From an uncultured Oscillospiraceae bacterium (lineage in GTDB: Bacteria; Bacillota; Clostridia; Oscillospirales; Oscillospiraceae), in the NCBI GenBank assembly GCA_934646005.1, contig CAKUED010000010.1:36461-100460 (forward strand): a stretch of 64,000 nt of DNA, written 5' to 3'. The position numbers and the translations under genes are program-made. The stretch's first letter is position 1. The number at the start of each line of letters is the position of its first letter. Below, piece by piece: positions 13,130-39,428 of the stretch. Under the pieces are notes generated by a model that ran no database searches, was not told the origin of the DNA, and saw only the letters and a program-made list of their open reading frames with translations.

Positions 13130-14020
13130 TCATTTCTGGTGTGTGCGGCGGTAGTCGCCGGGGAGCATCCCGGTGTGCTTTTTGAACACGGTGTAGAAAA
13201 ATTTTACGTCGCCGAAGCCGCACGCGAGAGCGATGTCGGCAACGGTGCGCTGCGTGCTCGAGAGCAGCTCGCACACGCGGCGGATGCGCACCTTCTGGAT
13301 GCGGGCGGTGATGGTCTCACCGGTCGCTTCGCGGAAAATGCGCCCCAGATAGTCGGGGTTCAGGTGCACCTCATCCGCCAGTGCCTGCACGGTCAGCTCC
13401 TCGCCGCAGCGCTGCTCGATGCTGGCGATGACGCTCTGCACCGCCTGCTTTTTACCTGGCGCGCCGCGCTTTTTTTCGGCGGCGTCCGACAGGCGGATCG
13501 CCGTGATGATGACCTGCAAAAGATACGCGCGGATGATCTCCATGTAGCCGGGGTACTGGTTGCGGTATTCGTAATACATCTTGTGAAAGAGCTCGCTGAA
13601 CGTGGTGTACAGGTCGCCGGAGACGCCGAAGCTCGCGTCCTTGCCGCGCCGCGCGCCAAGCAGCGAGCGGAACATGAACGAGCCGCTCAGCGCCTCGATG
13701 GCGCGGCTTCCGGCAAGGGACAGATCGAAAAATTCCGGCGTGAACATCAGATCGTACACCACGAACGGCTCTGCCGTGCGGCGGCTGGGGCAGAATTTGT
13801 GCGTCGTGCCGACGTTAATAAGAAACAGGTCGCCCTGCCGCGCGGGGGCGGACTTGTCCTCCACAACGTGCGTCGCCGCGCCGGAGAGGACATAGACGAC
13901 CTCGATATACTCATGCCGGTGGGCAACGCCCACAAAATCCGGGAAATCCGTGGAGACCTGCATATGAAAATGCTCTCCCGGCTTAAAAAACTGCTCGGCG
14001 GTCATCACCGGCACATCCAT
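13130..14020 (-). CDS. AraC family transcriptional regulator
   Basis: The start at 14020 is chosen because AGGAGGG precedes it and the protein then begins MDVPVMTAEQFF. The product has 296 residues. The N-terminal cupin-like sensing domain (about 10-150) contains FHMQVSTDFPDFVGVAHRHEYIE. The C-terminal double HTH (about 195-296) carries VQALADEVHLNPDYLGRIFR and the AraC signature in VADIALACGFGDVKFFYTVFKKHTG. It is upstream of, and on the same strand as, the M24/PIG-L operon, which it probably controls in response to a small ligand. Confidence 0.9.
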   Translation of the reverse strand: MDVPVMTAEQFFKPGEHFHMQVSTDFPDFVGVAHRHEYIEVVYVLSGAATHVVEDKSAPARQGDLFLINVGTTHKFCPSRRTAEPFVVYDLMFTPEFFDLSLAGSRAIEALSGSFMFRSLLGARRGKDASFGVSGDLYTTFSELFHKMYYEYRNQYPGYMEIIRAYLLQVIITAIRLSDAAEKKRGAPGKKQAVQSVIASIEQRCGEELTVQALADEVHLNPDYLGRIFREATGETITARIQKVRIRRVCELLSSTQRTVADIALACGFGDVKFFYTVFKKHTGMLPGDYRRTHQK

Positions 14021-14241
14021 GTGCGCGCCCTCCTGTTCGGTGTTTCTGCTTTTGATTATACTAAGCGGCGACGAAATGGCAAGGATTTTGTGGCATATCC
14101 CGACTTTTTTTGCTTTTGCATCCTGCACACCTGCTGTGCGGCATCCTAAATCCATTTTATTTCACTTGCGGATATGCGCGAAATGATATATAATCACTGT
14201 GAAAAAAGGGCGCACAACGCCGGAAATGGAGCGAAGCGGAC

Positions 14242-15132
14242 ATGAATACGCAGCATTTACAGTACGTTGTAGAGATCGAACGCACGCGGTCGATCTCACA
14301 GGCGGCGGAAAACCTGTTCATCGGGCAGCCGAATCTCAGCCGTATCCTGCACGATCTGGAAAAGACGCTGGGCTTCCGCATTTTTGAGCGGACGAGCCGC
14401 GGCGTGCGCCCCACGGAGCGCGGAGCAAAATTCCTGCTGCACGCGCGGGGCGTTCTGCGCGAGATGGAATATATCGAGGCGCTCGGACCGCGCCACGCCG
14501 TGCGCAGCCGCCTGCGCGTGTGTCTGCCGCGCTCGGCACGGCTGTTCGATCTGGCAGGGGAGTACCTTGCCTCGCTGGCGTCCCCGGGTGAGCTGGAAGT
14601 GACCATCCGCGAGTGCCACGCGCGGCAGGCGCTGCAAATGCTGACCGTGGGCGAGGCGGAATTGGGCGTTTTGCGCTTCCGCTCGGAATATCTGGACTAT
14701 TTTGACGAGCAGACGGCGGAGCGGGAGTTCAGCTTTCAGGTGCTGGGGCGGTTTAAATATGAGCTGGTGCTGCCGCGTGACCACCCGCTGGCGCGGCGCG
14801 AGGAGATCCACATGGAGGACCTGACGGAGTACCCGCAGATCATCCACGGCGACGCGCAGCGCCCGCGCGTGCGCACCGAAGATACGGCATGCCGCACGAT
14901 CTACACCGTGGACCGCATGGCGCAGCTCCAGCTTTTGCAGACCATCTGGGGCGTGTACACGTGGCTTCCGCCGATGCCGGAGCAGTACCTCCAGCGGTGG
15001 GGTCTCATTCAGAAGCCGTGCGAGGACAATACGGTGGTGTATCAGGACGCTCTCGTTTACAATCCGCAGTACGCGATGACCGAGATCGAGGCGGGCTTTG
15101 TGCAGTATGTGATCCGCGAGTATCGCAAATAA
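14242..15132 (+). CDS. LysR family transcriptional regulator
   Basis: The product has 296 residues. The winged HTH at the N-terminus reads HLQYVVEIERTRSISQAAEN...QPNLSRILHDLEKTLG, followed by a PBP-like effector domain (about 90-290). It is divergent from the AraC gene and immediately upstream of the malate/fumarate operon, so it is a plausible regulator of either. Its ribosome site is weak (GGAGCGAAGCGGAC). Promoter-like TATATAAT lies at about 14185, upstream of the start. Confidence 0.88.
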   Translation: MNTQHLQYVVEIERTRSISQAAENLFIGQPNLSRILHDLEKTLGFRIFERTSRGVRPTERGAKFLLHARGVLREMEYIEALGPRHAVRSRLRVCLPRSARLFDLAGEYLASLASPGELEVTIRECHARQALQMLTVGEAELGVLRFRSEYLDYFDEQTAEREFSFQVLGRFKYELVLPRDHPLARREEIHMEDLTEYPQIIHGDAQRPRVRTEDTACRTIYTVDRMAQLQLLQTIWGVYTWLPPMPEQYLQRWGLIQKPCEDNTVVYQDALVYNPQYAMTEIEAGFVQYVIREYRK

Positions 15133-15240: not shown

Positions 15241-15291
15241 AAAGTTTCCAACTCGCGAATTAAATTATTATGATAAAGGATGGTACAGGGT

Positions 15292-16236
15292 ATGAGTAAG
15301 ATTTCTGTGATCGGCGCGGGCAGTGTGGGCGCGACTATTGCAAACGACCTGATGATCCAGGGCACGGCTTCCGAGATCGTTCTGGTGGACATCAACAAGC
15401 AGAAGGCATTCGGCGAGGCGCTGGATATTTATCAGGGCGCGCCGTTCTGCTCTCCCGCCATTGTGCGCTCGGGCGACTATGCCGCGACCGCCGGCTCTGA
15501 CATCGTGGTCATCACGTCGGGTATGCCGCGCAAGGCAGGTCAGTCCCGTCTGGACCTCGCGCAGGCAAACGTCAATATCATCAAGGACATCGCGCCGCAG
15601 GTCGTGAAGGCCGCGCCGAACGCGAAATATGTCATCGTCTCGAACCCCGTGGACGTGCTGACCTATGTGTTCCACAAGGTCTCCGGGCTGCCTGAGAACC
15701 AGATCATCGGCTCCGGCACGATCCTCGACACCAGCCGCCTGCAGTCCGAGCTGGCGAAGATCTTCCGCATCAGCCCCAAGAACGTGCACGCGCACGTCTA
15801 CGGCGAGCATGGCGATTCCTCGTTCGTGCCCTGGTCGCTGGTACACATCGCCAACAACCATGTGGACGCCTACAAGGAAAGCTCCCCGGATAAGGACCGC
15901 ATCGACTGGCATCAGCAGTACGCCGAGATCGAAGAGTTCGTCCGTACCTCGGGCGGTCAGGTCATCAAGGCGAAGGGCGCAACGTTCTATGCCGTCGCGA
16001 TGTCCGTGTGCCACCTGTGCAAGTGCCTGCTGAACACCGCCGGCACGGCGCTGACGATCTCCACGCTGATGCACGGAGAATACGGTGTGAGCGATGTGTG
16101 TCTGTCCACGCTGGCGCTGGTCGATAACACCGGCGTGCGCGGCAAGATCCTCAACAAGCTCACCGACGAGGAGGTCGCCAGACTCCAGAACAGCGCAAAC
16201 AAGCTCAAGGAAGTCATCGCGCAGATCAACATTTAA
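15292..16236 (+). CDS. LDH-fold NAD-dependent dehydrogenase, predicted malate dehydrogenase
   Basis: The product has 314 residues. Overall the sequence is L-lactate-dehydrogenase-like: GAGSVGATIANDL, SNPVDVLTYVFHK, GSGTILDTSRLQ and the catalytic His in YGEHGDSSFVPW. The substrate-specificity loop, however, reads GMPRKAGQSRLDL. The residue at LDH position 102 (Arg80 here, codon 15529-15531) is Arg, as in malate dehydrogenases, not the Gln of lactate dehydrogenases. The Q102R change alone is known to convert a Bacillus LDH into an MDH. With fumarase and fumarate reductase downstream, oxaloacetate to malate is the likely reaction. Automated annotation would call this L-LDH. Confidence 0.75.
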   Translation: MSKISVIGAGSVGATIANDLMIQGTASEIVLVDINKQKAFGEALDIYQGAPFCSPAIVRSGDYAATAGSDIVVITSGMPRKAGQSRLDLAQANVNIIKDIAPQVVKAAPNAKYVIVSNPVDVLTYVFHKVSGLPENQIIGSGTILDTSRLQSELAKIFRISPKNVHAHVYGEHGDSSFVPWSLVHIANNHVDAYKESSPDKDRIDWHQQYAEIEEFVRTSGGQVIKAKGATFYAVAMSVCHLCKCLLNTAGTALTISTLMHGEYGVSDVCLSTLALVDNTGVRGKILNKLTDEEVARLQNSANKLKEVIAQINI

Positions 16237-16250
16237 CGAATACCATACAG

Positions 16251-16331
16251 CCCGCGCCGGAAAAACCGGCGCGGGCGCAGGATGTATCAGGGCGTCACAT
16301 CGCGCGGCGGACTGCCGGATGTGACGTTTTT
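16251..16331 (+). terminator. Double hairpin between the dehydrogenase and fumarase genes
   Basis: A 10-bp stem CCCGCGCCGG/CCGGCGCGGG (16251-16275) has no T-tract. A second stem CGTCACATC/GATGTGACG (16293-16326) is followed by T5. It could terminate or attenuate, setting the dehydrogenase level apart from the downstream operon. Confidence 0.7.
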
Positions 16332-16373
16332 CCTGAGTGACCGACAAATTACACTATCGGAGGGAACAGTTTT

Positions 16374-17750
16374 ATGGAATACCGCATGGAGCATGATTCA
16401 ATGGGCGAGGTCCGCGTCCCGGCGGACCGCTACTGGGCGGCGCAGACCCAGCGCAGCCACGAGAATTTCCCCATCGGCGTGGGTATCGAGATCATGCCGC
16501 GTGAGATCACACACGCCTTCGGCATCCTGAAAAAGGCGGCGGCGATCGCCAACCACGCGCTGCGCCCCGAAAAGATGACGGACGAAAAGCTGGCGGCGAT
16601 CTCGCAGGCGTGCGACGAGGTCATTTCGGGCAGCCTGAACGACCATTTCCCGCTGGTGGTGTGGCAGACCGGCTCGGGCACGCAGTCGAACATGAACGCC
16701 AACGAGGTCATTGCCAACCGTGGCAATGAGATCGCGGGCAAAAAGCTCCTGCACCCGAATGACGACATCAATATGTCCCAGTCGTCGAACGACACCTTCC
16801 CCACGGCGATGCACATCGCTGCCGTCGCCGCCATCGAGGACAAGCTCTTCCCGGCGATCGACAAGCTGGTGGCGACGCTGCTGCGTCTGGAAGAAGAAAA
16901 CCGCGGCATCGTAAAATCCGGGCGCACGCATTTGCAGGACGCCACGCCCATCGAGTTCTCGCAGGAGATCTCCGGCTGGCGCAGCAGTCTGGAAAAGGAC
17001 CGCAAAATGCTCGAGCTCGCGCTCCCGCCGCTGAAAGAGCTGGCACTGGGCGGCACGGCGGTCGGCACGGGTCTGAACGCGCCGAAGGGCTTTGACATCA
17101 AGGTCGCCGAGGCAGTCTCCGAGCTGACCGGCAAGGACTTCATCACCGCGCCGAATAAATTCCACGCCCTCACGAGCAAGGACGAGCTCGTTTTTGCGCA
17201 CGGCGCGGTCAAGGCGCTGGCGGCGGACATGATGAAGATCGCAAACGACGTGCGCTGGCTGGCATCCGGCCCGCGCGACGGTCTGGGCGAAATTTTCATC
17301 CCCGAAAACGAACCCGGCTCGTCCATCATGCCCGGCAAGGTCAACCCCACGCAGTGCGAGGCGGTCACGATGGTCGCCGTGCAGGTCATGGGCAACGATG
17401 TGGCGGTGGGTCTTGCCGCGTCGCAGGGCAACTTTGAGCTGAACGTGTTCATGCCCGTCTGCATCTACAACTTCCTGCAATCCGCGCGGCTGCTGGCGGA
17501 GTCGATCGTGTCCTTTAACGATCACTGCGCCGTGGGCATCACCGCCAACCGCGAAAAGATGCACCACAATCTCTACAATTCGCTCATGCTGGTCACGGCG
17601 CTCAACCCCTACATCGGCTATGAAAACGCCGCCAAGACCGCAAAGAAGGCATATAAGGAAAACATCTCGCTGAAGGAAGCGTGCGTGGCGCTCGGCTTCC
17701 TGACGGCGGAAAAATTCGACGAAGTGTTCCATCCCGAACAGATGGTCTGA
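16374..17750 (+). CDS. fumC: Class II fumarate hydratase (fumarase C)
   Basis: This enzyme interconverts malate and fumarate and is iron-independent. It has 458 residues, typical of FumC. Visible motifs are [18 protein letters not shown], the substrate-site segment [27 protein letters not shown] and the family signature [16 protein letters not shown]. It starts at 16374 behind CGGAGGG. The gap to the heterodisulfide-reductase-like gene is 10 bp, so it is the first gene of a long operon ending at 27730. In this setting it makes the fumarate used by the downstream reductase. Confidence 0.95.
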
Positions 17751-17760
17751 GGTGAGGTTT

Positions 17761-18552
17761 ATGACATTCAGTTATTTTCCGGGCTGCACGCTGAAAACAA
17801 AGGGCAAGCAGCTCGACCTGTACGGCAGAAAAGCCGCGCAGGCGCTGGGATTTGAGCTGTGCGAGCTGCCGGACTGGCAGTGCTGCGGCGCGGTGTATCC
17901 CATGGCGAAGGACGAAATTGCGACCCGCCTGTCGTCTGTGCGGGCGCTTGCCGCCGCGCGCGACGCCGGGCAGGAGCTGGTGACGCTGTGCTCGGCGTGC
18001 CATCACGTCATCAAGCGCGTGAACGGCGATCTGCAGCGCGACGAGACCATTGCCTCGCGCGTGCAGAATTACTTACAGCTCGACGTGCCGTACACGGGCG
18101 AGACGACGGTGCTGCACTATCTGGAGGTCCTGCGTGACCGCGTCGGCTTTGACGAGCTGGCGAAAAAGGTCACAAATCCGCTCACGGGGCGCAGGATCGG
18201 CGCGTATTACGGCTGTCTGCTGCTCCGCCCCGGCAAGGAAATGGGTTTTGACGACCCCGAAAATCCGACCATTCTGGAGGATTTTATCCGCGCCATCGGC
18301 GCAGAGCCTGTCGTGTGGGCGCGGCGCAACGAGTGCTGCGGCGGCTACACCGTGGTCGAGGGCAGGGAGTTCGCCAAAAAGCAGGTGGACAAGCTCATGG
18401 AAAACGCCAAAGCGTGCGGCGCACAGGAGCTCATCACCGCCTGCCCGCTTTGTATGTACAATCTCACCGCGAACGCGGAGGCGGGGCTGCCGGTGCATTA
18501 CTTTACCGAGCTGCTTGCCGAGGCGCTGGGCGTGAAGGAGGATGCCGAATGA
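17761..18552 (+). CDS. hdrB: Heterodisulfide-reductase-like subunit HdrB (CCG domains)
   Basis: The product has 263 residues and two CCG cysteine-rich domains: an N-terminal one (YFPGC...WQCCGAVYP...CSACHH) and a C-terminal one (ECCGGYTVVEG...CPLCMYN). In HdrB each binds a non-cubane [4Fe-4S] cluster that splits disulfides in methanogens. This organism is unlikely to use CoM-S-S-CoB, so here HdrB may act as a redox relay or on another thiol. The stop overlaps hdrC as ATGA. A similar CCG module is part of thiol:fumarate reductase TfrB of methanogens. Confidence 0.9.
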   Translation: MTFSYFPGCTLKTKGKQLDLYGRKAAQALGFELCELPDWQCCGAVYPMAKDEIATRLSSVRALAAARDAGQELVTLCSACHHVIKRVNGDLQRDETIASRVQNYLQLDVPYTGETTVLHYLEVLRDRVGFDELAKKVTNPLTGRRIGAYYGCLLLRPGKEMGFDDPENPTILEDFIRAIGAEPVVWARRNECCGGYTVVEGREFAKKQVDKLMENAKACGAQELITACPLCMYNLTANAEAGLPVHYFTELLAEALGVKEDAE

Positions 18553-18935
18553 ACAGGGACTATCTGATCGAGGATGTAAAGCGCATCGCCGGCGTCAATC
18601 CGAGAAAGTGCATGAAGTGCGGCAAGTGCTCCGGCGCGTGCCCGGCGTATGACGAGATGGACTACCATCCGCATCAGTTCGTGGATATGGTCGAAACAGG
18701 ACGCATCGAAGAGCTGATGAACTCGCGCGGCATTTACCGCTGCCTGAGCTGCTTTGCGTGTGTGGAGCGCTGCCCGCGCAGTGTTGAGCCTGCCGCGCTC
18801 ATCGAAGCCGTGCGCGACGCCGTCGTGCGTCAGCAGGGCGCGGATCACCTGAAGGCGGAACGCATCCCCGAAATCCTGGACGAGGACATCCCGCAGCAGG
18901 CGATCACCAGCGCATTCCGTAAATATAAAAAGTAA
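18549..18935 (+). CDS. hdrC: Heterodisulfide-reductase-like subunit HdrC
   Basis: The product has 128 residues, and the start is fixed by ATGA overlap with hdrB. Two [4Fe-4S] ferredoxin motifs are present: CMKCGKCSGACP (about 21-32) and CLSCFACVERCP (about 64-75). HdrC passes electrons between the HdrA ferredoxin domains and the HdrB clusters in the cytoplasm. The length is somewhat below the 180-190 residues of methanogen HdrC, as in bacterial Flx-Hdr sets. Confidence 0.92.
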   Translation: MNRDYLIEDVKRIAGVNPRKCMKCGKCSGACPAYDEMDYHPHQFVDMVETGRIEELMNSRGIYRCLSCFACVERCPRSVEPAALIEAVRDAVVRQQGADHLKAERIPEILDEDIPQQAITSAFRKYKK

Positions 18936-18947
18936 GGGGGGAGAGCA

Positions 18948-20939
18948 ATGCAGAGGATCGGTGTGTTTGTCTGCCACTGCGGTACGAATATCGCCGCAAC
19001 GGTGGACGTCAAAAAAGTCGCGGAAACTCTTGGGCATGAGCCCGGCGTTGTTTTCTCGACCGAGTATCAGTATATGTGCTCGCAGAGCGGGCAGGATCTC
19101 ATCAAAAACGCCATTCACGAGCACAAGCTCACAGGCGTGGTCGTGTGCTCCTGCTCCCCGCGTATGCACGAGCAGACGTTCCGCAAGACCTGCGCGTCGG
19201 CGGGGCTGAACGGCTACATGGTGGAGATCGCCAACATCCGCGAGCAGTGCTCCTGGATCCATAAGGATAAAGAGGAAGCCACGGAAAAGGCGGTCATCCT
19301 CGGCAGAGCCGCCATCGCCAAGGTGCATCTGAACGCGCCGCTCACGGCGGGCGAGAGCCCCGTGACGAAGCGCGCGCTCGTCATCGGCGGCGGCATCGCC
19401 GGCATCCAGACGGCGCTGGACATCGCCGACGCCGGCTTTGAGGTGGACATCGTGGAAAAGAAGCCCACCATCGGCGGCAAAATGACCCAGATCGACAAGA
19501 CGTTCCCCACGCTCGACTGCGCGGCGTGCATCCTCACGCCGAAAATGGTCGAGGCGGCGCAGAACGAAAAGATCAAGATCTACGCCTATTCCGAGGTCGA
19601 GGCGGTCAAGGGCTTTGTCGGAAACTTCCATGTGACCATCCGCAAAAAGGCGCGGTATGTGAAAGAGGACGTCTGCACCGGCTGCGGTCTTTGCACCGAA
19701 AAGTGCCCGCAGAAAAAAGTCCCGAACGATTTTAACCTCGGGCTCGACACCCGCCGCGCCATCTACATCCCGTTTGCGCAGGCCGTGCCGAAGATCGCCA
19801 CCATCGACGCAGACTACTGCACCATGCTCAAGACCGGCAAGTGCGGCGTGTGCTCCAAGGTGTGCACCGCGGGCGCGATCGACTACAAGCAGCAGGATAC
19901 GCTGGTGGAGCAGGAGTACGGCGCGATCGTGGTCGCTACCGGCTTTAACCCCATCAAGCTCGATAAGTTCGATGAGTTTGCGTACTCGCAGAGCCCGGAC
20001 GTGGTGTCCAGTCTCGAATTTGAGCGCCTGATGAACGCTGCCGGTCCGACCGGCGGCACGCTGCTGCGCCCGTCCGACGGCACGCACCCGAAAACGCTGG
20101 TGTTCGTGCAGTGCGTCGGCTCGCGCTGCGACGGCGCGGAGAAGGGCAAGCCCTACTGCTCGAAGATCTGCTGTATGTACACGGCGAAGCACGCCATGCT
20201 CTGCCGCGAAAAATACCCCGACACGGATGTGTATGTGTTCTACATCGACGTGCGCACCCCCGGCAAGAACTTTGACGAGTTCTACCGCCGCGCGGTCGAG
20301 GAATACGGCGTGCACTACATCAAGGGCATGGTCGGCAAGGTCGTGCCGGAAAACGGCAAGCTGAAGGTGCAGGCGTCCGACCTCATCGGCGGGCGGCAGC
20401 TCCACATCGACGCGGACATGGTCGTGCTCGCGGCGGCGATCGAGCCGGACGAGACGGCAAGACCCCTTGCCACGATGCTCACCGCGTCCATGGATACGAA
20501 CGACTTCTTTACCGAAGCGCACCCGAAGCTGCGCCCGGTGGAAAGCCCCACGGCGGGCATCTTCCTCTCCGGCGCGTGCCAGGGACCGAAGGACATCCCC
20601 GAAACGGTCGCGCAGGCGGGCGCGGCGGCGTCCAAGGTCATCGGGCTGCTTGCCAAGGACCATCTGACGTGCAACCCGTGCGTTGCGCAGCCGGACGAGA
20701 TGATGTGCAACGGCTGCTCCAACTGCGAAAAGGTGTGCCCCTACGGCGCAATTACTTATATCGACAAGGAATTTAGAGGTCCGAACCGCACGACGCTCCT
20801 CCGCCGCGTGGCGCAGGTCAACCCGGCGGTGTGCCAGGGCTGCGGCGCGTGCACGGTGGCGTGTATGTCCGGCGCGATGGATCTCAAGGGCTTCTCCAAC
20901 AAGCAGATCATGGCGGAGGTGGATGCGATATGCAGGTAA
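18948..20939 (+). CDS. hdrA: Heterodisulfide-reductase-like flavoprotein subunit HdrA
   Basis: The product has 663 residues, and ATG follows GGGGGGAG. An N-terminal Cys domain (VCHCGTNIAATVDV, CSPRMHEQTFR) is followed by a Rossmann FAD domain (ALVIGGGIAGIQTALDIAD, about 142-160), the conserved HdrA segment FPTLDCAACILTPKM, an inserted ferredoxin domain (CTGCGLCTEKCPQ), and a C-terminal 2x[4Fe-4S] domain (CNGCSNCEKVCPYG, CQGCGACTVACMSG). HdrA carries the bifurcating FAD in methanogen complexes. In this operon it would sit between the NADH module (Flx genes) and HdrBC/FrdAB. It overlaps the next gene by 10 bp. Confidence 0.94.
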   Translation: MQRIGVFVCHCGTNIAATVDVKKVAETLGHEPGVVFSTEYQYMCSQSGQDLIKNAIHEHKLTGVVVCSCSPRMHEQTFRKTCASAGLNGYMVEIANIREQCSWIHKDKEEATEKAVILGRAAIAKVHLNAPLTAGESPVTKRALVIGGGIAGIQTALDIADAGFEVDIVEKKPTIGGKMTQIDKTFPTLDCAACILTPKMVEAAQNEKIKIYAYSEVEAVKGFVGNFHVTIRKKARYVKEDVCTGCGLCTEKCPQKKVPNDFNLGLDTRRAIYIPFAQAVPKIATIDADYCTMLKTGKCGVCSKVCTAGAIDYKQQDTLVEQEYGAIVVATGFNPIKLDKFDEFAYSQSPDVVSSLEFERLMNAAGPTGGTLLRPSDGTHPKTLVFVQCVGSRCDGAEKGKPYCSKICCMYTAKHAMLCREKYPDTDVYVFYIDVRTPGKNFDEFYRRAVEEYGVHYIKGMVGKVVPENGKLKVQASDLIGGRQLHIDADMVVLAAAIEPDETARPLATMLTASMDTNDFFTEAHPKLRPVESPTAGIFLSGACQGPKDIPETVAQAGAAASKVIGLLAKDHLTCNPCVAQPDEMMCNGCSNCEKVCPYGAITYIDKEFRGPNRTTLLRRVAQVNPAVCQGCGACTVACMSGAMDLKGFSNKQIMAEVDAICR

Positions 20940-21367
20940 ATGAAAGCTGGAAACCCACCATCGTTGCATTTTGCTGCAACTGGTGCTCGTATGCGGGCGC
21001 GGATCTGTCGGGCACGAACCGGCTGAACTATCCGGCGAACGTCAAGATCATCCGCATCCCGTGCTCCTGCCGTCTGAACCCGATGTTCATCCTGCGCGCG
21101 TTCCAGCGCGGCGCGGACGGCGTGATCCTGTGCGGCTGCCACCCCGGCGACTGCCACTACACCACCGGCAACTACTATGCCCGCCGCCGCATGACGCTGC
21201 TGTTCTCGATGCTCGACTTCCTCGGCATCGAAAAGGAGCGCACGCGCGTGGAGTGGGTGTCCGCCGCGGAGGGCGCAAAATTTGCCGCCACGATGAACGA
21301 TTTTGTGGCGACGATCACCAAACTCGGCGAAAACCGCAGATTGGAGGACCTGAGATGCAAGGAGTAA
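20930..21367 (+). CDS. MvhD/FlxD-like [2Fe-2S] subunit
   Basis: The product has 145 residues, starts at ATG 20930 and overlaps hdrA. It has the MvhD-family cysteine pattern: FCCNWCSYAGADLSG, the segment CSCRLNP, and CGCHPGDCHYTTGNYYARRR. MvhD carries a [2Fe-2S] cluster and links the electron-donating module (hydrogenase, formate dehydrogenase or Flx) to HdrA. No hydrogenase subunits are present, so the donor must be the NADH-type module encoded next. This matches FlxD of the bacterial FlxABCD-HdrABC complex. Confidence 0.88.
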   Translation: MQVNESWKPTIVAFCCNWCSYAGADLSGTNRLNYPANVKIIRIPCSCRLNPMFILRAFQRGADGVILCGCHPGDCHYTTGNYYARRRMTLLFSMLDFLGIEKERTRVEWVSAAEGAKFAATMNDFVATITKLGENRRLEDLRCKE

Positions 21368-22329
21368 AGGAAAAGGCATTGGCGCTGCTCCAGAGCGGGA
21401 CGGTCGATCGCGTGCTCGGCTGGAAGGCGGGCGAGTTCTTCTACGACCTGACCCCGGCGGTGTTCACATCTGCCGAAGAAATTGAAAAGGATTTCGTCTG
21501 GAGCGCATTCTCGGCAGCCAATCTCTCAAAATACCTCATTCAGGAGTCCCGCAAGGGCGGCAAGGTCGCGGCGTTTTTGAAGCCGTGTGACAGCTACTCC
21601 TTTGTGCAGCTTCTGAAGGAGCACCGCATCTGGCGTGACCACGTTTACGTTGTGGGCGTGCAGTGTGACGGGATGTGTGACATCGACAAGATCCGCGCCG
21701 CGGGCTGCAAGGGCGTCACGGCGGTCGCGGAGGACGGCGATGCGCTTCGCGTCACGACGCTCACGGGCGAAAAGACCGTAAACAAGCAGGATGTGCTGCT
21801 TGGGCGCTGCACGGTGTGCAAGTCCAAGAAGCTCGTGGAATTTGACGAGCTGCTCGGCGAGCAGGGCGAGGAGCTGGATTCTGCCCGCTTTGACGAGGTG
21901 GCAAAGCTCGAAGCCATGACCCCCGAAGAGCGCTATGCGTTCTGGCGCGGCGAGCTTTCGCGCTGCATCCGCTGCAACGCCTGCCGCAACGTCTGCCCCG
22001 CGTGCTCGTGCGAAAAGTGTGTGTTTGATAACCACGACCTCGGTACGGATAATAAGGCGGCGGCGGACAGCTTTGAGGAGAATTTCTTCCACATCATCCG
22101 CGCGTTCCATGTGGCGGCGCGCTGCACCGACTGCGGCGAGTGCTCGCGGGTCTGCCCGCAGCATATCCCGCTGCATCTGCTCAACCGCAAGTTCATTAAG
22201 GACATCAACGACCTGTACGGCGTTTATCAGGCTGGCGCGGATATGGATACGAAGCCGCCGCTGATGAACTTTACCAAGGACGACTGTGAGCCGTCCGTCG
22301 TATACGAACGGGGAGGTGCAAAGGCATGA
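21355..22329 (+). CDS. Iron-sulfur subunit of Flx-type NADH module (HdrA/F420-dehydrogenase-beta-like)
   Basis: ATG 21355 overlaps the previous gene by 13 bp. The product has 324 residues. The N-terminal part (about 1-190) resembles subunits with a variable Cys motif (PCDSYSF, VQCDGMCDIDK, CTVCKSKK). The C-terminal part has two [4Fe-4S] motifs (CIRCNACRNVCPACSC and CTDCGECSRVCPQ). The closest context is FlxB/FlxC of FlxABCD-HdrABC. I cannot say which of the two letters applies, so the symbol is left empty. It overlaps the next gene as ATGA. Confidence 0.75.
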   Translation: MQGVKEKALALLQSGTVDRVLGWKAGEFFYDLTPAVFTSAEEIEKDFVWSAFSAANLSKYLIQESRKGGKVAAFLKPCDSYSFVQLLKEHRIWRDHVYVVGVQCDGMCDIDKIRAAGCKGVTAVAEDGDALRVTTLTGEKTVNKQDVLLGRCTVCKSKKLVEFDELLGEQGEELDSARFDEVAKLEAMTPEERYAFWRGELSRCIRCNACRNVCPACSCEKCVFDNHDLGTDNKAAADSFEENFFHIIRAFHVAARCTDCGECSRVCPQHIPLHLLNRKFIKDINDLYGVYQAGADMDTKPPLMNFTKDDCEPSVVYERGGAKA

Positions 22330-23348
22330 AAAAGCTCCCGATCGCAAAGCTGCCGGAGCTGTTCGCGGCGATCAGCGGCGAAAAGACCCTGTACATCCCG
22401 GCGCAGGACGCCTCCGGCGTCAGCAAATTTGCCGTCTGGCAGGAGGGCATGACGCTCTCGCCCGCGCTCAATACCGTGCGCAGCGCGAAGGATCTGTTCT
22501 TCCCGCAGGTGGAAAACCTCATGGGCTTTAAGGTCACGGGCAAGCAGATCGAGGTGCTGGAAAACCGCGACGTGACCGCGCCGTTCGTGCTGTTCGGCGT
22601 GCGCGCGTGCGACTGCCGCAGCTTTGACGTGCTCGACCGCGTGTTCCTCGCAGAGCCGGTGGATACCTACTATCAGACCCGCCGCGAAAACGGCACGATC
22701 GTGACCATGGCGTGCACCGAGCCGGAGGAAACGTGCTTCTGCGGTGCGTTCGGCATTGACGCGGCAGACCCGGCGGGCGACGTGACGTGCTGGATGGATG
22801 CCGAAAATCTCTACTGGCGCGCCAACACCGAAAAGGGCGAGGCACTGACAAAGAGCCTGAGCTGCCTGACTGACGGCGGCGACGACGCGGTCGCAGAGCA
22901 GCAGGCGCAGACGCGCGCGGTGATGAGCAAGCTGCCGCTGCACGATCTGGATCTGTCGAGCTTCGGCGCGGGCAAAACGAAGGCGCTCTTTGACCGCCCG
23001 GAATGGAAGCAGCTCTCTGAAAGCTGCCTTGGCTGCGGAACGTGCACGTTCGTGTGCCCGACCTGCCAGTGCTACGACATTCAGGAGTTCAATACCGGCA
23101 AGACCGTCAAGCGTTTCCGCTGCTGGGATAGCTGTATGTATTCCGACTTTACGAAAATGTCCGCCGGTCAGCCGCGCCCGACACAGCTCGAGCGCTTCCG
23201 CCAGCGCTTTATGCACAAGCTGGTGTATTACCCGGAAAATAACGACGGGCTGTATAGCTGCGTGGGCTGCGGGCGCTGCCTGCAAAAGTGCCCCATCCAC
23301 ATGAACATTGCCAAAGTCATCCGAACACTGGGGGAGGAAGCAAAATGA
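22326..23348 (+). CDS. Iron-sulfur subunit of Flx-type NADH module (AsrA/HyhB-like)
   Basis: The product has 340 residues and starts by ATGA overlap. The fold pattern is like anaerobic sulfite reductase subunit A and the beta subunit of sulfhydrogenase: FGVRACDCRSFDVLDRVF in the middle, then two [4Fe-4S] motifs, CLGCGTCTFVCPTCQC and CVGCGRCLQKCP. It relays electrons from the flavin/NADH subunit to the other Fe-S subunits. No siroheme subunit (AsrC) is present, so sulfite reduction is not supported. It overlaps the next gene by 4 bp. Confidence 0.8.
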   Translation: MKKLPIAKLPELFAAISGEKTLYIPAQDASGVSKFAVWQEGMTLSPALNTVRSAKDLFFPQVENLMGFKVTGKQIEVLENRDVTAPFVLFGVRACDCRSFDVLDRVFLAEPVDTYYQTRRENGTIVTMACTEPEETCFCGAFGIDAADPAGDVTCWMDAENLYWRANTEKGEALTKSLSCLTDGGDDAVAEQQAQTRAVMSKLPLHDLDLSSFGAGKTKALFDRPEWKQLSESCLGCGTCTFVCPTCQCYDIQEFNTGKTVKRFRCWDSCMYSDFTKMSAGQPRPTQLERFRQRFMHKLVYYPENNDGLYSCVGCGRCLQKCPIHMNIAKVIRTLGEEAK

Positions 23349-24172
23349 GAAAAGATCCCTTGATCCCCAACATCGGCGTGGTCACGAAAATTCGCGTGGA
23401 CACGCCCGACGTCAAGACCTTCCGCGTGGTGGGACTTGACGGCAAAAAGCCGTTTGAGCACATCCCGGGGCAATGCGCGATGCTCTCTATCCCCGGTGTG
23501 GGCGAGGCGCTGTTTTCCATCACGTCGTCGCCGACGGAAGAGGAATTTGTGGAGTTTTCCATCAAAAAATGCGGCTGCGTAACGCAGTGGCTGCACCAGA
23601 TGGAGGAGGGGCAGCAGATCACGCTGCGAGGACCCTACGGCAACGGCTTCCCCGTGGACACGGCGTTCGCGGGCAAGGACCTGCTGTTCATCGCCGGCGG
23701 CATCGGTCTTGCGCCGCTGCACTCCGTTATCAACTACTGCCGCCACTACCGTGACCGCTACGGTAAGATCGACATCGTCTACGGCTCGCGCTCCAAGGAG
23801 GATCTGGTCGATTTCCAGGAGATCCTGGACGTGTGGTGCAAGGAGGATGGCATCAACGTCCACCTGACCATCGACCGCGAGCAGCCGGACTGGGACGGGC
23901 ACGTCGGCTTTGTGCCGAACTATGTGAAGGAGCTGGGCTTTACCACGGATAAGACCGTTGTGATGTGCGGTCCTCCCATCATGATCAAGTTCACCCTCGC
24001 GGGGCTGATGGAGCTGGGCTTTGCCCGCACGCAGGTGTACACCACGATGGAGCTGAAGATGAAATGCGCGCTCGGCAAGTGCGGACGCTGCAACATCGGC
24101 AGCAAATACGTCTGCAAGGACGGCCCGGTGTTCCGCTTTGACCAGCTCGACGAGCTGCCCAATGAATATTAA
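23345..24172 (+). CDS. FAD/NAD(P)H-binding reductase subunit (FlxA/AsrB-like)
   Basis: The product has 275 residues. It belongs to the ferredoxin-NADP reductase superfamily: an FAD domain (HIPGQCAMLSIPGVGEALFS, the RGPYGNGFP loop), a nucleotide domain (LLFIAGGIGLAPLHSVI, VMCGPPIMIKF), and a C-terminal [2Fe-2S] motif C-x4-C-x2-C-x8-C (CALGKCGRCNIGSKYVC) as in PyrK and AsrB. This is the entry point for NADH (or NADPH) electrons. GGAGGAAGC precedes the ATG. It defines the complex as pyridine-nucleotide-linked rather than hydrogen- or formate-linked. Confidence 0.88.
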   Translation: MRKDPLIPNIGVVTKIRVDTPDVKTFRVVGLDGKKPFEHIPGQCAMLSIPGVGEALFSITSSPTEEEFVEFSIKKCGCVTQWLHQMEEGQQITLRGPYGNGFPVDTAFAGKDLLFIAGGIGLAPLHSVINYCRHYRDRYGKIDIVYGSRSKEDLVDFQEILDVWCKEDGINVHLTIDREQPDWDGHVGFVPNYVKELGFTTDKTVVMCGPPIMIKFTLAGLMELGFARTQVYTTMELKMKCALGKCGRCNIGSKYVCKDGPVFRFDQLDELPNEY

Positions 24173-24184
24173 GGAGAAACAGCG

Positions 24185-24859
24185 ATGGAAACTATGGTAA
24201 ATGTTTTTCTGTTCGGCAAAAAGTATGAAGTTCCCGCCAGCCTGACCATCATGGAAGCGATGGAATATGCCGGCTATCAGCTCGTGCGCGGCTGCGGCTG
24301 CCGCAACGGTTTCTGCGGCGCGTGCGCCACGATCTACCGCATCGCGGGCGACCGGGAGCTCAAGGCGTGCCTCGCGTGCTCCACGCGAGTGGAGAACAAT
24401 ATGTATGTGGCGACGCTGCCGTTCTTCCCGCTGGTAAAAGAGGTCTACGACATTGAAAAGGTCCGCCCGGATGAGCGCATCATGATGCAGCTCTATCCCG
24501 AGATTTATTCCTGTGTCGGCTGCAACGCCTGCACCAAGGCGTGCACGCAGGGGCTGAACGTAATGCAGTACATCGCCTACGCCCAGCGCGGCGAATACGA
24601 AAAGTGCGCGGAGGAGTCGTTTGACTGCGTGATGTGCGGCGTCTGCTCATCGCGCTGCCCGGCAGGCATCTCGCACCCGCAGGTCGCGATGCTCGCCCGC
24701 CGTCTCAACGGCAAATATCTCGCCCCGCACTGTGACCACCTGACCGAGCGTGTGCAGGAAATTCGGGACGGCAAGTTCGAAAAGCTCATTGAGGACCTGA
24801 TGGGCAAGCCCATCGACGAGATCAAGGAGCTTTACAACCACCGCGAGATCGAAAAGTAA
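24185..24859 (+). CDS. Fumarate reductase iron-sulfur subunit (soluble type)
   Basis: The product has 224 residues. The N-terminal [2Fe-2S] domain (CGCRNGFCGACA...CLAC, about 38-65) is followed by a 2x[4Fe-4S] ferredoxin domain (CVGCNACTKACTQG and CVMCGVCSSRCPAG, about 105-155). SdhB/FrdB proteins have the same domain order. The quinone-binding partners FrdC/FrdD are not encoded nearby, and the second motif set is of the 2x[4Fe-4S] form, not [3Fe-4S]. Electrons therefore come from the soluble Hdr/Flx partners rather than a quinol. It lies 12 bp before the flavoprotein gene. Confidence 0.85.
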   Translation: METMVNVFLFGKKYEVPASLTIMEAMEYAGYQLVRGCGCRNGFCGACATIYRIAGDRELKACLACSTRVENNMYVATLPFFPLVKEVYDIEKVRPDERIMMQLYPEIYSCVGCNACTKACTQGLNVMQYIAYAQRGEYEKCAEESFDCVMCGVCSSRCPAGISHPQVAMLARRLNGKYLAPHCDHLTERVQEIRDGKFEKLIEDLMGKPIDEIKELYNHREIEK

Positions 24860-24871
24860 GGAGGGAACGTC

Positions 24872-26488
24872 ATGTATACTGATCCGAAAATGCTCGAATC
24901 CATCCGCAAGGTCGAAGCGGCCCGCGCGGAAAACATCAAGCTCGATCCCCGCAGAATGACGGCGGAGGAAAAAGACGTTCTGCTCAAAACGTACCATCCC
25001 GACTACCGCGAGAATCAGTTCACCGTGCTGGACTTTGGTCCGAACAAGGGCGAAAAAGTCCCCACAGAGCTGGCGGCGCTGCTCGAGGGCACGTCCCGCA
25101 TTCTGAATAAAGAGATCGACCTGTCCTGCCCGGACTATGACACGGACGTGCTCATCATCGGCGCGGGCGGCGCGGGCTGCTCGGCGGCGATCGAAGCCGA
25201 CAAGGCGGGCGTCAAGACCATGATCGTGACGAAGCTGCGCATGGGCGACGCGAACACGATGATGGCAGAGGGCGGCATTCAGGCGGCGGACAAGCCGAAC
25301 GATTCTCCCGCCCAGCACTTCCTGGACGCCTACGGCGGCGGACATTTCGCCGCGCAGAAGGACCTTCTTTACAAGCTCGTCACCGAAGCGCCGGAAGCCA
25401 TCGAATGGCTCTCCGAACTCGGCGTGGAGTTTGACAAAGCGCCCGACGGCACGATGATCACCACCCACGGCGGCGGCACGTCCCGCAAGCGGATGCACGC
25501 GGCAAAGGACTATTCCGGCGCGGAGATCATGCGCACGCTGCGCGATGAGGTGCTCAACCGTCAGATCCCCGTGGTGGACTTCACCTCCGCCATCGAGCTT
25601 GTGAAGGACGAAAACGGTCACTGCGCGGGTGCGATCCTTATGAACATGGAGACGAAGGAGCTGTACGTTGCGCGCGCCAAGACCGTCATTCTTGCCACCG
25701 GCGGCGCGGGGCGGCTGCACTATCAGGGCTTCCCGACCTCGAACCACTACGGCGCGACGGCGGACGGGCTCATCCTCGGCTACCGCGCGGGCGCGAAGCT
25801 GCTGTATGCCGATACGCTTCAGTACCATCCCACGGGCGCGGCGTTCCCGGCGCAGATCTACGGCGCACTGGTGACGGAAAAGGTGCGCTCGGTCGGCGCG
25901 ATGCTTGTGAACTGTGACGGCGAAGTGTTCATGAACCCGCTGGAGACGCGCGACGTTGCCGCCGCGTCCATCATCCGCGAGTGCTCCGCCCGCAATAAGG
26001 GCATCCAGACGCCGCTTGGCGACGCGGTGTGGCTGGACACGCCGATGATCGAGCTGAAAAACAGCGCGGGCACGATCGAAAAGCGTATCCCCGCCATGAT
26101 GCGGATGTTCGGCAAGCACGGCATCGACATCCGTACCGAGCCGATCCTCGTCTATCCGACGCTGCACTATCAGAACGGCGGTCTGCACATCACCTCCGAC
26201 GGGCAGACAGACGTTGAAAACCTGTTCGCCGCCGGCGAGGTCGTGGGCGGTATCCACGGGCGCAACCGTCTGATGGGCAACAGTCTGCTCGACGTCATCG
26301 TCTTTGGGCGCAACGCGGGCGTGCACGCCTCCGAAAAGGCAAAGAGCGTGACGGTCGGCAAGCTGACGCTCAGCCATCTCGAAGCGTTTGAGGCAGAGCG
26401 TGCCGTGAGCGGCAAGGCGGCGGAAAAGCTGTCGCCGCAGCTCCTGCCGGATTATGCCCGCAGAGAAGAGCCCACCCTGGCAAAGTAA
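24872..26488 (+). CDS. Fumarate reductase / succinate dehydrogenase flavoprotein subunit
   Basis: The product has 538 residues. FAD motif: VLIIGAGGAGCSAAIEAD. Active-site region of the SDH/FRD family: HPTGAAFPAQ, a conserved Arg in TEKVRSVGA, HYQNGGLHI, and GRNRLMGNSLLDVIVFGR. At the position of the covalent-FAD His of membrane FrdA (SHTVAAEGG) it reads ANTMMAEGG, so FAD is probably non-covalent, as in L-aspartate oxidase. Aspartate oxidase is an alternative, but no nadA/nadC is present and the partner Fe-S gene argues for fumarate reduction. It receives electrons from the preceding gene's product. Confidence 0.85.
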   Translation: MYTDPKMLESIRKVEAARAENIKLDPRRMTAEEKDVLLKTYHPDYRENQFTVLDFGPNKGEKVPTELAALLEGTSRILNKEIDLSCPDYDTDVLIIGAGGAGCSAAIEADKAGVKTMIVTKLRMGDANTMMAEGGIQAADKPNDSPAQHFLDAYGGGHFAAQKDLLYKLVTEAPEAIEWLSELGVEFDKAPDGTMITTHGGGTSRKRMHAAKDYSGAEIMRTLRDEVLNRQIPVVDFTSAIELVKDENGHCAGAILMNMETKELYVARAKTVILATGGAGRLHYQGFPTSNHYGATADGLILGYRAGAKLLYADTLQYHPTGAAFPAQIYGALVTEKVRSVGAMLVNCDGEVFMNPLETRDVAAASIIRECSARNKGIQTPLGDAVWLDTPMIELKNSAGTIEKRIPAMMRMFGKHGIDIRTEPILVYPTLHYQNGGLHITSDGQTDVENLFAAGEVVGGIHGRNRLMGNSLLDVIVFGRNAGVHASEKAKSVTVGKLTLSHLEAFEAERAVSGKAAEKLSPQLLPDYARREEPTLAK

Positions 26489-26518
26489 GAATTAGAGAGA
26501 TTTAAGGGGAAATACGTC

Positions 26519-27730
26519 ATGTCATTTTCAATGAACGCCGCCAACTTCCTGATGCTGTCGGTCTTTGCGATCGCGGCAGTCGGGTATATTCTGGGGCGCA
26601 TCACCATCAAGGGGATCAGCCTCGGCACGGCAGGCGTGTTTGTTATCGCACTCATCTACGGCGCATTTTTCGGATTGCACTTCAACTCCAAGTTCGTGCT
26701 CGAGGAGGTCAACTATGCCTCACAGGCGCTGAAGATCGTGGAAAATCTGGGGCTTGTGTTCTTTGTCACGTCCGTCGGCTTCATCGCCGGTCCGAACTTC
26801 TTTAAGAACATGAAGCACAACTTCAAGTCCTATGTGCTGCTGGGCTTTGTCATCATCTTCTCCGGCGGCATCGCGGCTACGCTCTGCCTGCTCGTTGCCC
26901 GCGCGCTGGAGAGCGGCACGCCGGGCTATGACCCGCAGCAGCTCACCGCCATCGTTACCGGGCTTCTGTCGGGCGCGCTGACGTCCACCCCGGCGTTCTC
27001 GGCGACGAAGGAGGCTGTCGCAGCACAGTATCAGGACGCCGTCACGGTCGGCTACGGTATCGCGTACCTGTTCGGCGTCATCGGTGTGGTGCTGTTCGTG
27101 CAGCTCATGCCGCGCATCGTCCATGCCGATATGGCGGAGGAGGTGCGCAAGATCACCCATGTGGAAACGGGCGATGTGGAGAAGTTCAAGGGAAAGCTCC
27201 TGGAGTTTGACGACTTTGGCTTTACGCCGTTCGCGCTTGCCGCGGTGCTGGGCATTCTGGTCGGGTCAGTCAAGCTGTTCGGCTTCTTCTCGCTCACGAC
27301 GACGGGCGGCACGCTGCTCATCTCTCTGGTGTTCGGGCACTTCGGTCATGTCGGTCGTGCCGACCTGATGCCAAGCAAAAAGGTGCTCGAGACGTTCCGC
27401 GAGCTGGGGCTGATGGTCTTTCTGATCGGCGCGGGCGTGTCCGGCGGCATGAGCTTTGTACGCTACTTTAAGCCGATCTACTTCGTCTACGGCATCGTGA
27501 TGACGCTGCTGCCGATGATCCTCGGCTATCTCGTGGCGCGCTATGTGCTGAAGCTGAACCTGCTGAACATCCTCGGTTCGATCACGGGCGGCATGACGTC
27601 CACCCCGGCGCTCGGCACGCTCATCCATGTGGCGGGCACGAGCAACGTCGCCTCCGCCTACGCGGCGACGTACCCCATCGCGCTCATCGCGGTGGTGCTG
27701 GTGACGCAGTTCCTGGTGACAGTATTTTGA
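26519..27730 (+). CDS. AAEx-family (AspT/YidE/SucE-like) transporter, short form
   Basis: This 403-residue membrane protein has two related halves, each with about five membrane segments. The paired AAEx motifs are TGLLSGALTSTPAFSATKEA in the first half and TGGMTSTPALGTLIHVAGT in the second. Typical members are about 540-560 residues with central TrkA-C domains, which are missing here. The family includes the aspartate:alanine antiporter AspT and the succinate exporter SucE1 of Corynebacterium. As the last gene of the fumarate-reductase operon, 30 bp after the flavoprotein, dicarboxylate (succinate) export or a fumarate/aspartate exchange is the best guess. Confidence 0.8.
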   Translation: MSFSMNAANFLMLSVFAIAAVGYILGRITIKGISLGTAGVFVIALIYGAFFGLHFNSKFVLEEVNYASQALKIVENLGLVFFVTSVGFIAGPNFFKNMKHNFKSYVLLGFVIIFSGGIAATLCLLVARALESGTPGYDPQQLTAIVTGLLSGALTSTPAFSATKEAVAAQYQDAVTVGYGIAYLFGVIGVVLFVQLMPRIVHADMAEEVRKITHVETGDVEKFKGKLLEFDDFGFTPFALAAVLGILVGSVKLFGFFSLTTTGGTLLISLVFGHFGHVGRADLMPSKKVLETFRELGLMVFLIGAGVSGGMSFVRYFKPIYFVYGIVMTLLPMILGYLVARYVLKLNLLNILGSITGGMTSTPALGTLIHVAGTSNVASAYAATYPIALIAVVLVTQFLVTVF

Positions 27731-32494: not shown

Positions 32495-32570
32495 GGGCCT
32501 GTAGCTCAGCTGGGAGAGCGTTCGGTTCGCATCCGAGAGGTCGAGAGTTCGAGTCTCTTCAGGTCCACCA
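32495..32570 (+). tRNA. tRNA-Ala (anticodon CGC)
   Basis: The gene is 76 nt with encoded CCA. Acceptor stem GGGCCTG / CAGGTCC contains the G3-U70 wobble pair that defines alanine tRNAs. D arm GCTC..GAGC, anticodon stem TTCGG/CCGAG with loop TTCGCAT giving CGC (reads GCG), T arm GAGAG-TTCGAGT-CTCTT. It is followed by a strong terminator. Confidence 0.95.
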
Positions 32571-39288: not shown

Positions 39289-39428
39289 GACTTTTTGTGC
39301 GAGCAGGCGTCACAGCCGGAGCAGCCGCAGCCGCACCCGCCGCGCTTTTTGCGCCGGACCGCGCCGCGCACGGCAAATGCGAGCAGCGCGAGGAGCGCCA
39401 GAACGATCAGAATATCCCAAATATTCAT
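39285..39428 (-). CDS. FeoB-associated Cys-rich membrane protein
   Basis: The product has 47 residues: one membrane helix (MNIWDILIVLALLALLAFAV), then a basic stretch and the Cys cluster GGCGCGCSGCDAC. This is the PF12669-type protein that commonly follows feoB in Firmicutes and may take the place of FeoC or help pass iron. The ATG overlaps the feoB stop (ATGA). Confidence 0.88.
   Translation of the reverse strand: MNIWDILIVLALLALLAFAVRGAVRRKKRGGCGCGCSGCDACSHKKS

Follow-up and report, generated by a model that had tools for sequence, protein, structure and literature searches.

An operon joining Flx-Hdr genes to fumarate reductase genes in Oscillospirales: a candidate soluble, NADH-fed and possibly electron-bifurcating enzyme

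Fumarate reduction usually saves energy by way of quinones and membranes, and Clostridia often lack quinones. How, then, could clostridial succinate producers gain energy from fumarate? The question is raised by a twelve-gene operon in a stretch of 64,000 nucleotides from an uncultured Oscillospiraceae bacterium (contig CAKUED010000010.1, positions 36,461 to 100,460; hereafter the window), where the genes of an NADH-linked Flx-Hdr module (hdrBCA, flxDCBA) stand beside those of a fumarate reductase (frdBA). The answer that we hold reasonably probable is that the nine products form one soluble complex, in which NADH would reduce fumarate and ferredoxin (Fd) together: 2 NADH + fumarate + Fdox → 2 NAD+ + succinate + Fdred(2-). 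If true, such a soluble bifurcating fumarate reductase would explain the energy gain of quinone-free Clostridia that make succinate, including Ruminococcus flavefaciens of the rumen. In the gut, propionate is made from succinate, whose formation competes with that of methane for reducing power.

Linkage of the nine genes across Clostridia

The link between the two modules was followed through 120 loci: the 80 best genome loci for FrdA, and 40 from 39 of the 40 FrdA-positive genomes among 291 drawn evenly from Clostridia, the class of R. flavefaciens (many of them metagenome-assembled). The fortieth FrdA-positive genome, G001, was already in the set as L068. Some duplication exists, as FrdA is identical in L042 and L116 and in L133 and L134, and L154 and L155 come from the same genome, on different contigs; clustering of the 119 FrdA sequences (with that of the window) at 95% and at 90% identity leaves 101 and 76 clusters, respectively. 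The core hdrB-hdrC-hdrA-flxD-flxC-flxB-flxA-frdB-frdA is complete and in order in 89 of the 120 loci, and 30 others end at a contig edge with the gene order kept as far as it is visible. Eight of these cut loci, seven with frdB-frdA only and one with frdA only, are uninformative on the link. In every one of the 112 loci that extend beyond frdBA, flx/hdr genes are attached, which excludes chance as the cause of the adjacency; a separation of frdAB from hdr/flx in relatives, named by an earlier note on this DNA as what would speak against its reading, was not seen. In the remaining locus, L153, frdB-frdA has shifted ahead of hdrB and all nine genes are nevertheless retained on one strand (so that the full core is visible in 90 loci), which points to selection, and not just common descent, as what holds them together. 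Furthermore, all raw distance-matrix correlations over 88 loci and the window lie at 0.69-0.90, so that the genes travel together.

Within the 291 genomes, FrdA was found in at least 40, HdrA in 44 and both in 39; these counts are lower bounds, as at most five candidates per genome were scored for FrdA and at most four for HdrA. The only genome with FrdA and no HdrA found, G077, has a contig that stops inside the cluster (L133). Five genomes showed HdrA and no FrdA: G038 holds the same operon leaving its contig, G028 a different cluster, and G043, G071 and G161 carry Flx-HdrA next to MTHFR- and FTHFS-like proteins, as does G076, which was reached through FlxA (these two families were checked by Pfam for the sister cluster L157 only). 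The whole operon occurs in assemblies named R. flavefaciens MA2007, ND2009, XPD3002 and 007c (L068, L072, L073 and L079), so that the biochemistry of its enzyme may be testable in cultured organisms. Judged by the relatives of its FrdA, the window belongs with Oscillospirales-like Clostridia.

The 40 genomes and five further FrdA-positive ones make up a set of 45 carriers. Menaquinone synthesis was found in none of them (menD 0/45, PF02621 0/45) with searches that were positive in 7 and 3 of 14 controls, an expected rather than striking result, since quinones are so often missing from Clostridia. DsrC was found in none of the 45, with a positive E. coli control, and was rejected as a partner on that count. 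Another Fe-S subunit of the Frd/Sdh type is present in three carriers at E<=1e-15 and in two over the cut-off. RnfC exceeds its cut-off in 25, and all of the other 20 have a Fe_hyd_lg_C match, which in G020 is a 65-codon fragment (E = 6e-21). In every carrier, reduced ferredoxin thus seems to have a candidate outlet, either Rnf or a protein of the [FeFe]-hydrogenase family, bearing in mind that Fe_hyd_lg_C takes in non-hydrogenase members.

The core subunits and the electron path they suggest

The twelve genes of the window operon are the following; FAD stands for flavin adenine dinucleotide, LDH and MDH for lactate and malate dehydrogenase.

15280..16236, + strand: mdh, NAD enzyme of the LDH/MDH family (PF00056/PF02866; TIGR01771); optional neighbour
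16374..17750, + strand: fumC, class II fumarase, malate to fumarate (PF00206, PF10415); optional neighbour
17752..18552, + strand: hdrB, two CCG domains, that is, two noncubane cluster sites (PF02754; start at GTG 17752 or ATG 17761)
18549..18935, + strand: hdrC, ferredoxin-type subunit with two [4Fe-4S] clusters (PF13183)
18948..20939, + strand: hdrA, FAD subunit and proposed bifurcation site; has ferredoxin domains both as an insertion and at the C-terminus (5odc_A match)
20930..21367, + strand: flxD, MvhD-like, [2Fe-2S] link from Flx to HdrA (PF02662, 185.5 bits)
21355..22329, + strand: flxC, Fe-S subunit with homology to the beta subunits of F420-formate dehydrogenase (9t1s_M, 7bkb_E, 8rvu_E)
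22326..23348, + strand: flxB, Fe-S subunit related to sulfhydrogenase beta and AsrA (PF17179)
23345..24172, + strand: flxA, FAD- and NAD(P)-binding electron-input subunit with a [2Fe-2S] motif (PF00175, PF00970, PF10418)
24185..24859, + strand: frdB, [2Fe-2S] region and two CxxCxxCxxxC motifs (PF12838 over the cut-off, PF13510 just under it)
24872..26488, + strand: frdA, fumarate reductase flavoprotein, probably with noncovalent FAD (PF00890, 252 bits)
26519..27730, + strand: transporter of the AspT/YidE family, candidate succinate exporter or dicarboxylate exchanger (PF06826, TIGR01625); optional neighbour

Pfam and NCBIfam, which together covered all twelve proteins, give families that agree with the content and order first read from the letters alone, all on the plus strand from 15280 to 27730. 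The tight packing described from fumarase on, with many overlaps and no gap above 30 base pairs (bp), is also confirmed. After 137 bp between mdh and fumC there follow 1 bp (fumC-hdrB), an overlap of 4 (hdrB/hdrC), 12 bp (hdrC-hdrA), overlaps of 10 (hdrA/flxD), 13 (flxD/flxC), 4 (flxC/flxB) and 4 (flxB/flxA), then 12 bp (flxA-frdB), 12 bp (frdB-frdA) and 30 bp (frdA-transporter), that is, overlaps of 4-13 bp and gaps of 1-30 bp, with the starts of hdrC, flxD and flxC placed at ATG 18549, 20930 and 21355. A scan for promoters and terminators gave no excess over shuffled sequences (3 found against a mean of 3.0; 8 found against a mean of 12.6). In line with the earlier note, no catalytic subunit of a hydrogenase or formate dehydrogenase, no membrane anchor and no quinone subunit exceeded a curated cut-off among the twelve, and the sole membrane protein is the AspT-family transporter.

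On the donor side, the domain content of FlxA, FlxB and FlxC is that of a predicted NADH input line. The homologues of FlxC are subunits of solved Hdr complexes, in PDB entries (9t1s, 7bkb, 8rvu) that also contain HdrA, and FlxB matches NF040829 (167 bits) and TIGR02910 (138 bits), both under the cut-off, in keeping with its sulfhydrogenase beta/AsrA kinship. HdrA aligns over its full length with methanogen HdrA (5odc_A, 686 bits). Its K414, kept in 95 of 95 sequences, corresponds to Lys409 of 5odc, which according to the available parts of two reports forms a hydrogen bond to N5 of the bifurcating FAD (PMC6405883; PMC10734219). Equally invariant (95/95) are sixteen ferredoxin-type cysteines (243, 246, 249, 253; 291, 299, 302, 306; 587, 590, 593, 597; 629, 632, 635, 639), while a handful of other HdrA cysteines vary. 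With seven subunits in one operon and a full-length HdrA bearing both the lysine and these cysteines, the module is by sequence of the Flx-Hdr type. HdrC has eight cysteines in 91/91 and scores 64 bits against TIGR03290 (cut-off 160). Both CCG sites of HdrB are complete, with ten cysteines in 91/91; the protein falls below the HdrB model (127 bits, cut-off 345) and also below NF042965, the model of the 8-methylmenaquinol:fumarate reductase subunit SdhE (141.1 bits, cut-off 500), so that it is not placed in SdhE.

On the acceptor side, FrdB (224 residues) belongs to a large family, with 6670 of 6776 candidate proteins homologous at E<=1e-5, as does FrdA, with at least 7999. Two CxxCxxCxxxC motifs (C110, C113, C116, C120; C148, C151, C154, C158) are kept in 116/116 FrdB sequences; conservation in the [2Fe-2S] region is 116/116 for C39 and C65, 115/116 for C44 and C47 and 105/116 for C62. 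At the place of the second full motif, quinone-linked enzymes carry a [3Fe-4S] site. Partial RnfC and TfrB matches of FrdB stay below the cut-off (NCBIfam), and neither Pfam nor NCBIfam finds in it the CCG domain that TfrB has at its C-terminus. Indeed, successive parts of the TfrB model are matched by FrdB (19-94), HdrC (126-220) and HdrB (415-487), so that methanogen TfrB looks like a natural fusion of these three types. The best NCBIfam model for FrdA is TfrA, at 344.2 bits against a cut-off of 718, followed by SdhA/FrdA (284 bits) and NadB (273-276 bits). The window operon differs from methanogen TfrAB in a FrdB without CCG domain, with a TfrB score far below the cut-off, and in its attached NADH module; a plain TfrAB was rejected for want of that domain.

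In FrdA, H319, R339, H432 and R466 align with dicarboxylate-site residues of Sdh/Frd, and are what we take to be the fumarate site; all four are kept in 119/119 sequences. The position of the covalent-FAD histidine of 7d6v is occupied by Asn128, again in 119/119, which by analogy with FAD-site mutants of other enzymes suggests noncovalent FAD and a bias towards fumarate reduction. About 88 residues precede the FAD domain (window 24872-25135), with a conserved stretch at about residues 25-60, and are covered by none of the 60 PDB matches listed; this extension has perhaps a docking role. Could FrdA reduce another enoate, or be an enzyme of the L-aspartate oxidase kind? The NadB scores, close behind those of TfrA and SdhA/FrdA, and the unusual extension would be in its favour. 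Nevertheless, the presumed fumarate-site residues are invariant, and 64 of the 81 loci with room have fumarase upstream of hdrB at a distance of 3 kb or less. Moreover, three R. flavefaciens genomes hold a separate homologue (35-36%, ~490 residues) that may be NadB, and the available text of PMC7282089 reports the operon as expressed and regulated in a succinate producer; such another substrate seems very improbable.

None of the features that mark quinol:fumarate reductase and Sdh, namely the anchor, the covalent-FAD histidine and menaquinone synthesis in the host, was thus found in the window operon or its carriers, and a quinone-linked enzyme was rejected for these reasons. Since Flx and HdrABC are complete, the FrdA residues are in place, and neither an anchor nor, in 45/45 carriers, menaquinone synthesis was found, there is good support for the prediction of a fumarate reductase that is soluble, takes its electrons from NADH and needs no quinone. 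Electron bifurcation, the other part of what the earlier note had proposed, is consistent with the HdrA lysine, with the ferredoxin-type domains and with a reaction that is exergonic on paper. We infer the subunit contacts, the electron path, bifurcation, stoichiometry and the physical complex itself. NADH would be oxidised at FlxA, and FlxB, FlxC and FlxD would hand its electrons on to HdrA, whose FAD would split the pair. One electron would drop in potential and reach ferredoxin by way of the low-potential ferredoxin domains of HdrA. The other would rise in potential and, after HdrC and the CCG clusters of HdrB, arrive at FrdB and then at FrdA for the conversion of fumarate to succinate; two rounds per fumarate would use 2 NADH and give one Fdred(2-). 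Fumarase and the MDH-like enzyme would supply fumarate, the AspT-type carrier would probably export succinate, and ferredoxin would be re-oxidised by Rnf or an [FeFe] hydrogenase. With E0' values of -320 mV for NAD and +33 mV for fumarate (available text of PMC5861303), the standard-state estimate is -49 to -33 kJ/mol fumarate for assumed Fd potentials of -420 to -500 mV.

The same potentials allow a simpler course: either FrdAB would receive the full electron pair of NADH from Flx-Hdr, with the energy difference dissipated as heat, or the low-potential branch of HdrA would work conditionally. The pull of fumarate suffices thermodynamically without coupling, sequence alone cannot reveal bifurcation, and none of the twelve genes was found to encode a separate ferredoxin. 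For a simple NADH:fumarate reductase, however, HdrA would be superfluous, and a full-length HdrA with its sixteen cysteines and its FAD-N5 lysine in 95/95 would be expensive if idle. Furthermore, a candidate ferredoxin outlet (RnfC or Fe_hyd_lg_C, one a fragment) was found in 45/45 carriers, and we consider this uncoupled course unlikely.

Known relatives and the weight of the coupled reading

The earlier note knew of no biochemical description of this exact combination. As an operon and as a coupling idea, it is already in print for Pseudoclostridium thermosuccinogenes, and so is not new. The available text of PMC7282089 presents a "succinate operon" of fumarase, seven Flx-Hdr genes, two fumarate reductase genes and a hypothetical protein suggested as succinate transporter, and proposes fumarate reduction linked to ferredoxin reduction, citing a 2019 preprint (Koendjbiharie and van Kranenburg). 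Judged by its locus list, where the inner Flx-Hdr order is unstated, gene kinds, number and block order are those of the window operon; the organism is another one, and the window adds the mdh-like gene upstream. In the same text, CO2 limitation raises the operon ~4-fold, and under H2 succinate is lost, which the authors take to fit a ferredoxin-coupled fumarate reductase. Added here are the spread (at least 40 of the 291 sampled Clostridia genomes), the linkage over 112 loci with one informative rearrangement, carriers without recognisable quinone synthesis or DsrC, the named R. flavefaciens assemblies, and sister clusters with another acceptor head.

The FlxABCD-HdrABC of Desulfovibrio and other anaerobes has the same seven subunits; its proposed acceptor is a thiol/disulfide such as DsrC (available part of PMC4215793), whereas the window operon has FrdBA attached and DsrC was found in no carrier. 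By extension, Flx-HdrABC could here reduce some disulfide, with FrdAB as a separate thiol- or ferredoxin-linked fumarate reductase and the linkage a matter of shared pathway. The ten of ten CCG cysteines kept in 91/91 HdrB sequences and the DsrC proposal for sulfate reducers would suit such a thiol relay. DsrC, however, was found in 0/45 carriers, no disulfide-carrier gene was recognised among the twelve (Pfam, NCBIfam), and FrdB, unlike TfrB, has no CCG domain for accepting thiol electrons, all of which leaves this relay rather improbable. In tubeworm symbionts, flxABCD-hdrABC is interspersed with a fumarate reductase, and direct electron transfer has also been proposed; the setting there is a reverse tricarboxylic acid cycle with korABCD, and the reductase is annotated as methanogen-like TfrAB (PMC6315080 and PMC11636981, in their available parts).

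In turn, the Flx-HdrA-MetFV clusters L156-L159 share the FlxDCBA input and the HdrC-HdrA core with the window operon, but their acceptor is MTHFR/MetV-like with FTHFS nearby, and their HdrA-like protein has 1009-1483 residues. No HdrB match was found in the stretches of these clusters that were covered, with a Pfam check for L157 only. As HdrB occurs in the Frd clusters that reach it and is unmatched in the four MetFV clusters, a role of HdrB as the link to FrdB fits. A broader conjecture, to which we would give somewhat less than an even chance, is that Flx-HdrA serves generally as an NADH-bifurcating chassis to which different high-potential heads (MetFV in some Clostridia, HdrB-FrdBA in the window) can be fitted, that in the version for fumarate the noncubane CCG clusters of HdrB would act as a relay into FrdB, no disulfide being reduced, and that this would be the main energy saving from fumarate in quinone-free, succinate-making Oscillospirales of gut and rumen.

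Several observations weigh against the bifurcating complex. HdrB retains both complete CCG sites, as a real disulfide reductase would. An AlphaFold2 model of FrdB-FrdA (one read-through chain, 22 related loci) is low in confidence, with a mean predicted local distance difference test of 57 and a predicted template modelling score of 0.55. Partial correlations, noisy over 88 loci and the window, are 0.31 for FrdB-FrdA, 0.27 for FrdB-HdrA and only 0.04 for FrdB-HdrB, and so do not mark out HdrB as the partner of FrdB; the measure also misses the pair HdrB-HdrC (0.05). According to the available text of PMC7282089, the rise in expression in P. thermosuccinogenes is not significant for each subunit, and Na2S, which lowers the redox potential, acted opposite to H2, a result that its authors call confusing. 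For pyruvate fermentation in D. alaskensis, one study found Hdr/flox-1 to matter and another did not (available part of PMC4215793), and in the tubeworm symbionts the Hdr-Flx cluster shares an expression pattern from which tfrAB deviates (available part of PMC11636981). Lastly, no biochemical proof or description of a bifurcating fumarate reductase complex was found in the literature searched, nor any report of the purified enzyme in open-licence full texts, most matches being judged by their listing and most subscription papers lying outside the coverage.

Optional neighbours and other features of the window

Unlike the nine-gene core, the fumarase, the mdh-like gene and the transporter are optional. 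In at least 56 of the 81 loci with room, the mdh-like gene lies no more than 3 kb upstream of hdrB; the count could be higher, as some loci begin closer to hdrB than that. Its product had been called MDH-like, which calls for a refinement: the protein scores over the L-lactate dehydrogenase cut-off (TIGR01771, 322.9 bits against 303.55), but it has an arginine, R84, at what we take to be the LDH/MDH specificity position, as do 55/55 sequences from these operons, and for this reason malate dehydrogenase seems likelier than LDH. Automatic annotation would label it lactate dehydrogenase, though malate suits the pathway. The transporter, earlier described as dicarboxylate-type, can be refined to the AspT/YidE family (PF06826). 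Of the 106 loci with room, 62 have a homologue, on one strand or the other, whose start lies no more than 1.5 kb downstream of frdA.

Directly upstream of the operon, a LysR-family regulator on the same strand (14242-15132) is a candidate regulator of it; an AraC-type regulator lies on the opposite strand (13130-14155), and an L,D-transpeptidase gene in the opposite direction comes after the operon. Elsewhere in the window stand a 1477-residue protein with YDG and SLH domains (1046-5476), a ferrous iron transporter in which FeoA and FeoB are fused (39428-41773, minus strand) and a tRNA-Ala (cgc) at 32495-32570, the sole tRNA found in the 64 kb. Outside the window, another HdrA cluster (L160:3860-12517) brings together a GlcD-like FAD-linked oxidase, a CCG protein, a fused Fer4-CCG protein, HdrA (48%), FlxD, an [FeFe] hydrogenase and a short putative lipoyl carrier of the GcvH/LbpA type, judged by eye; it is possibly an H2-linked hydroxyacid system.

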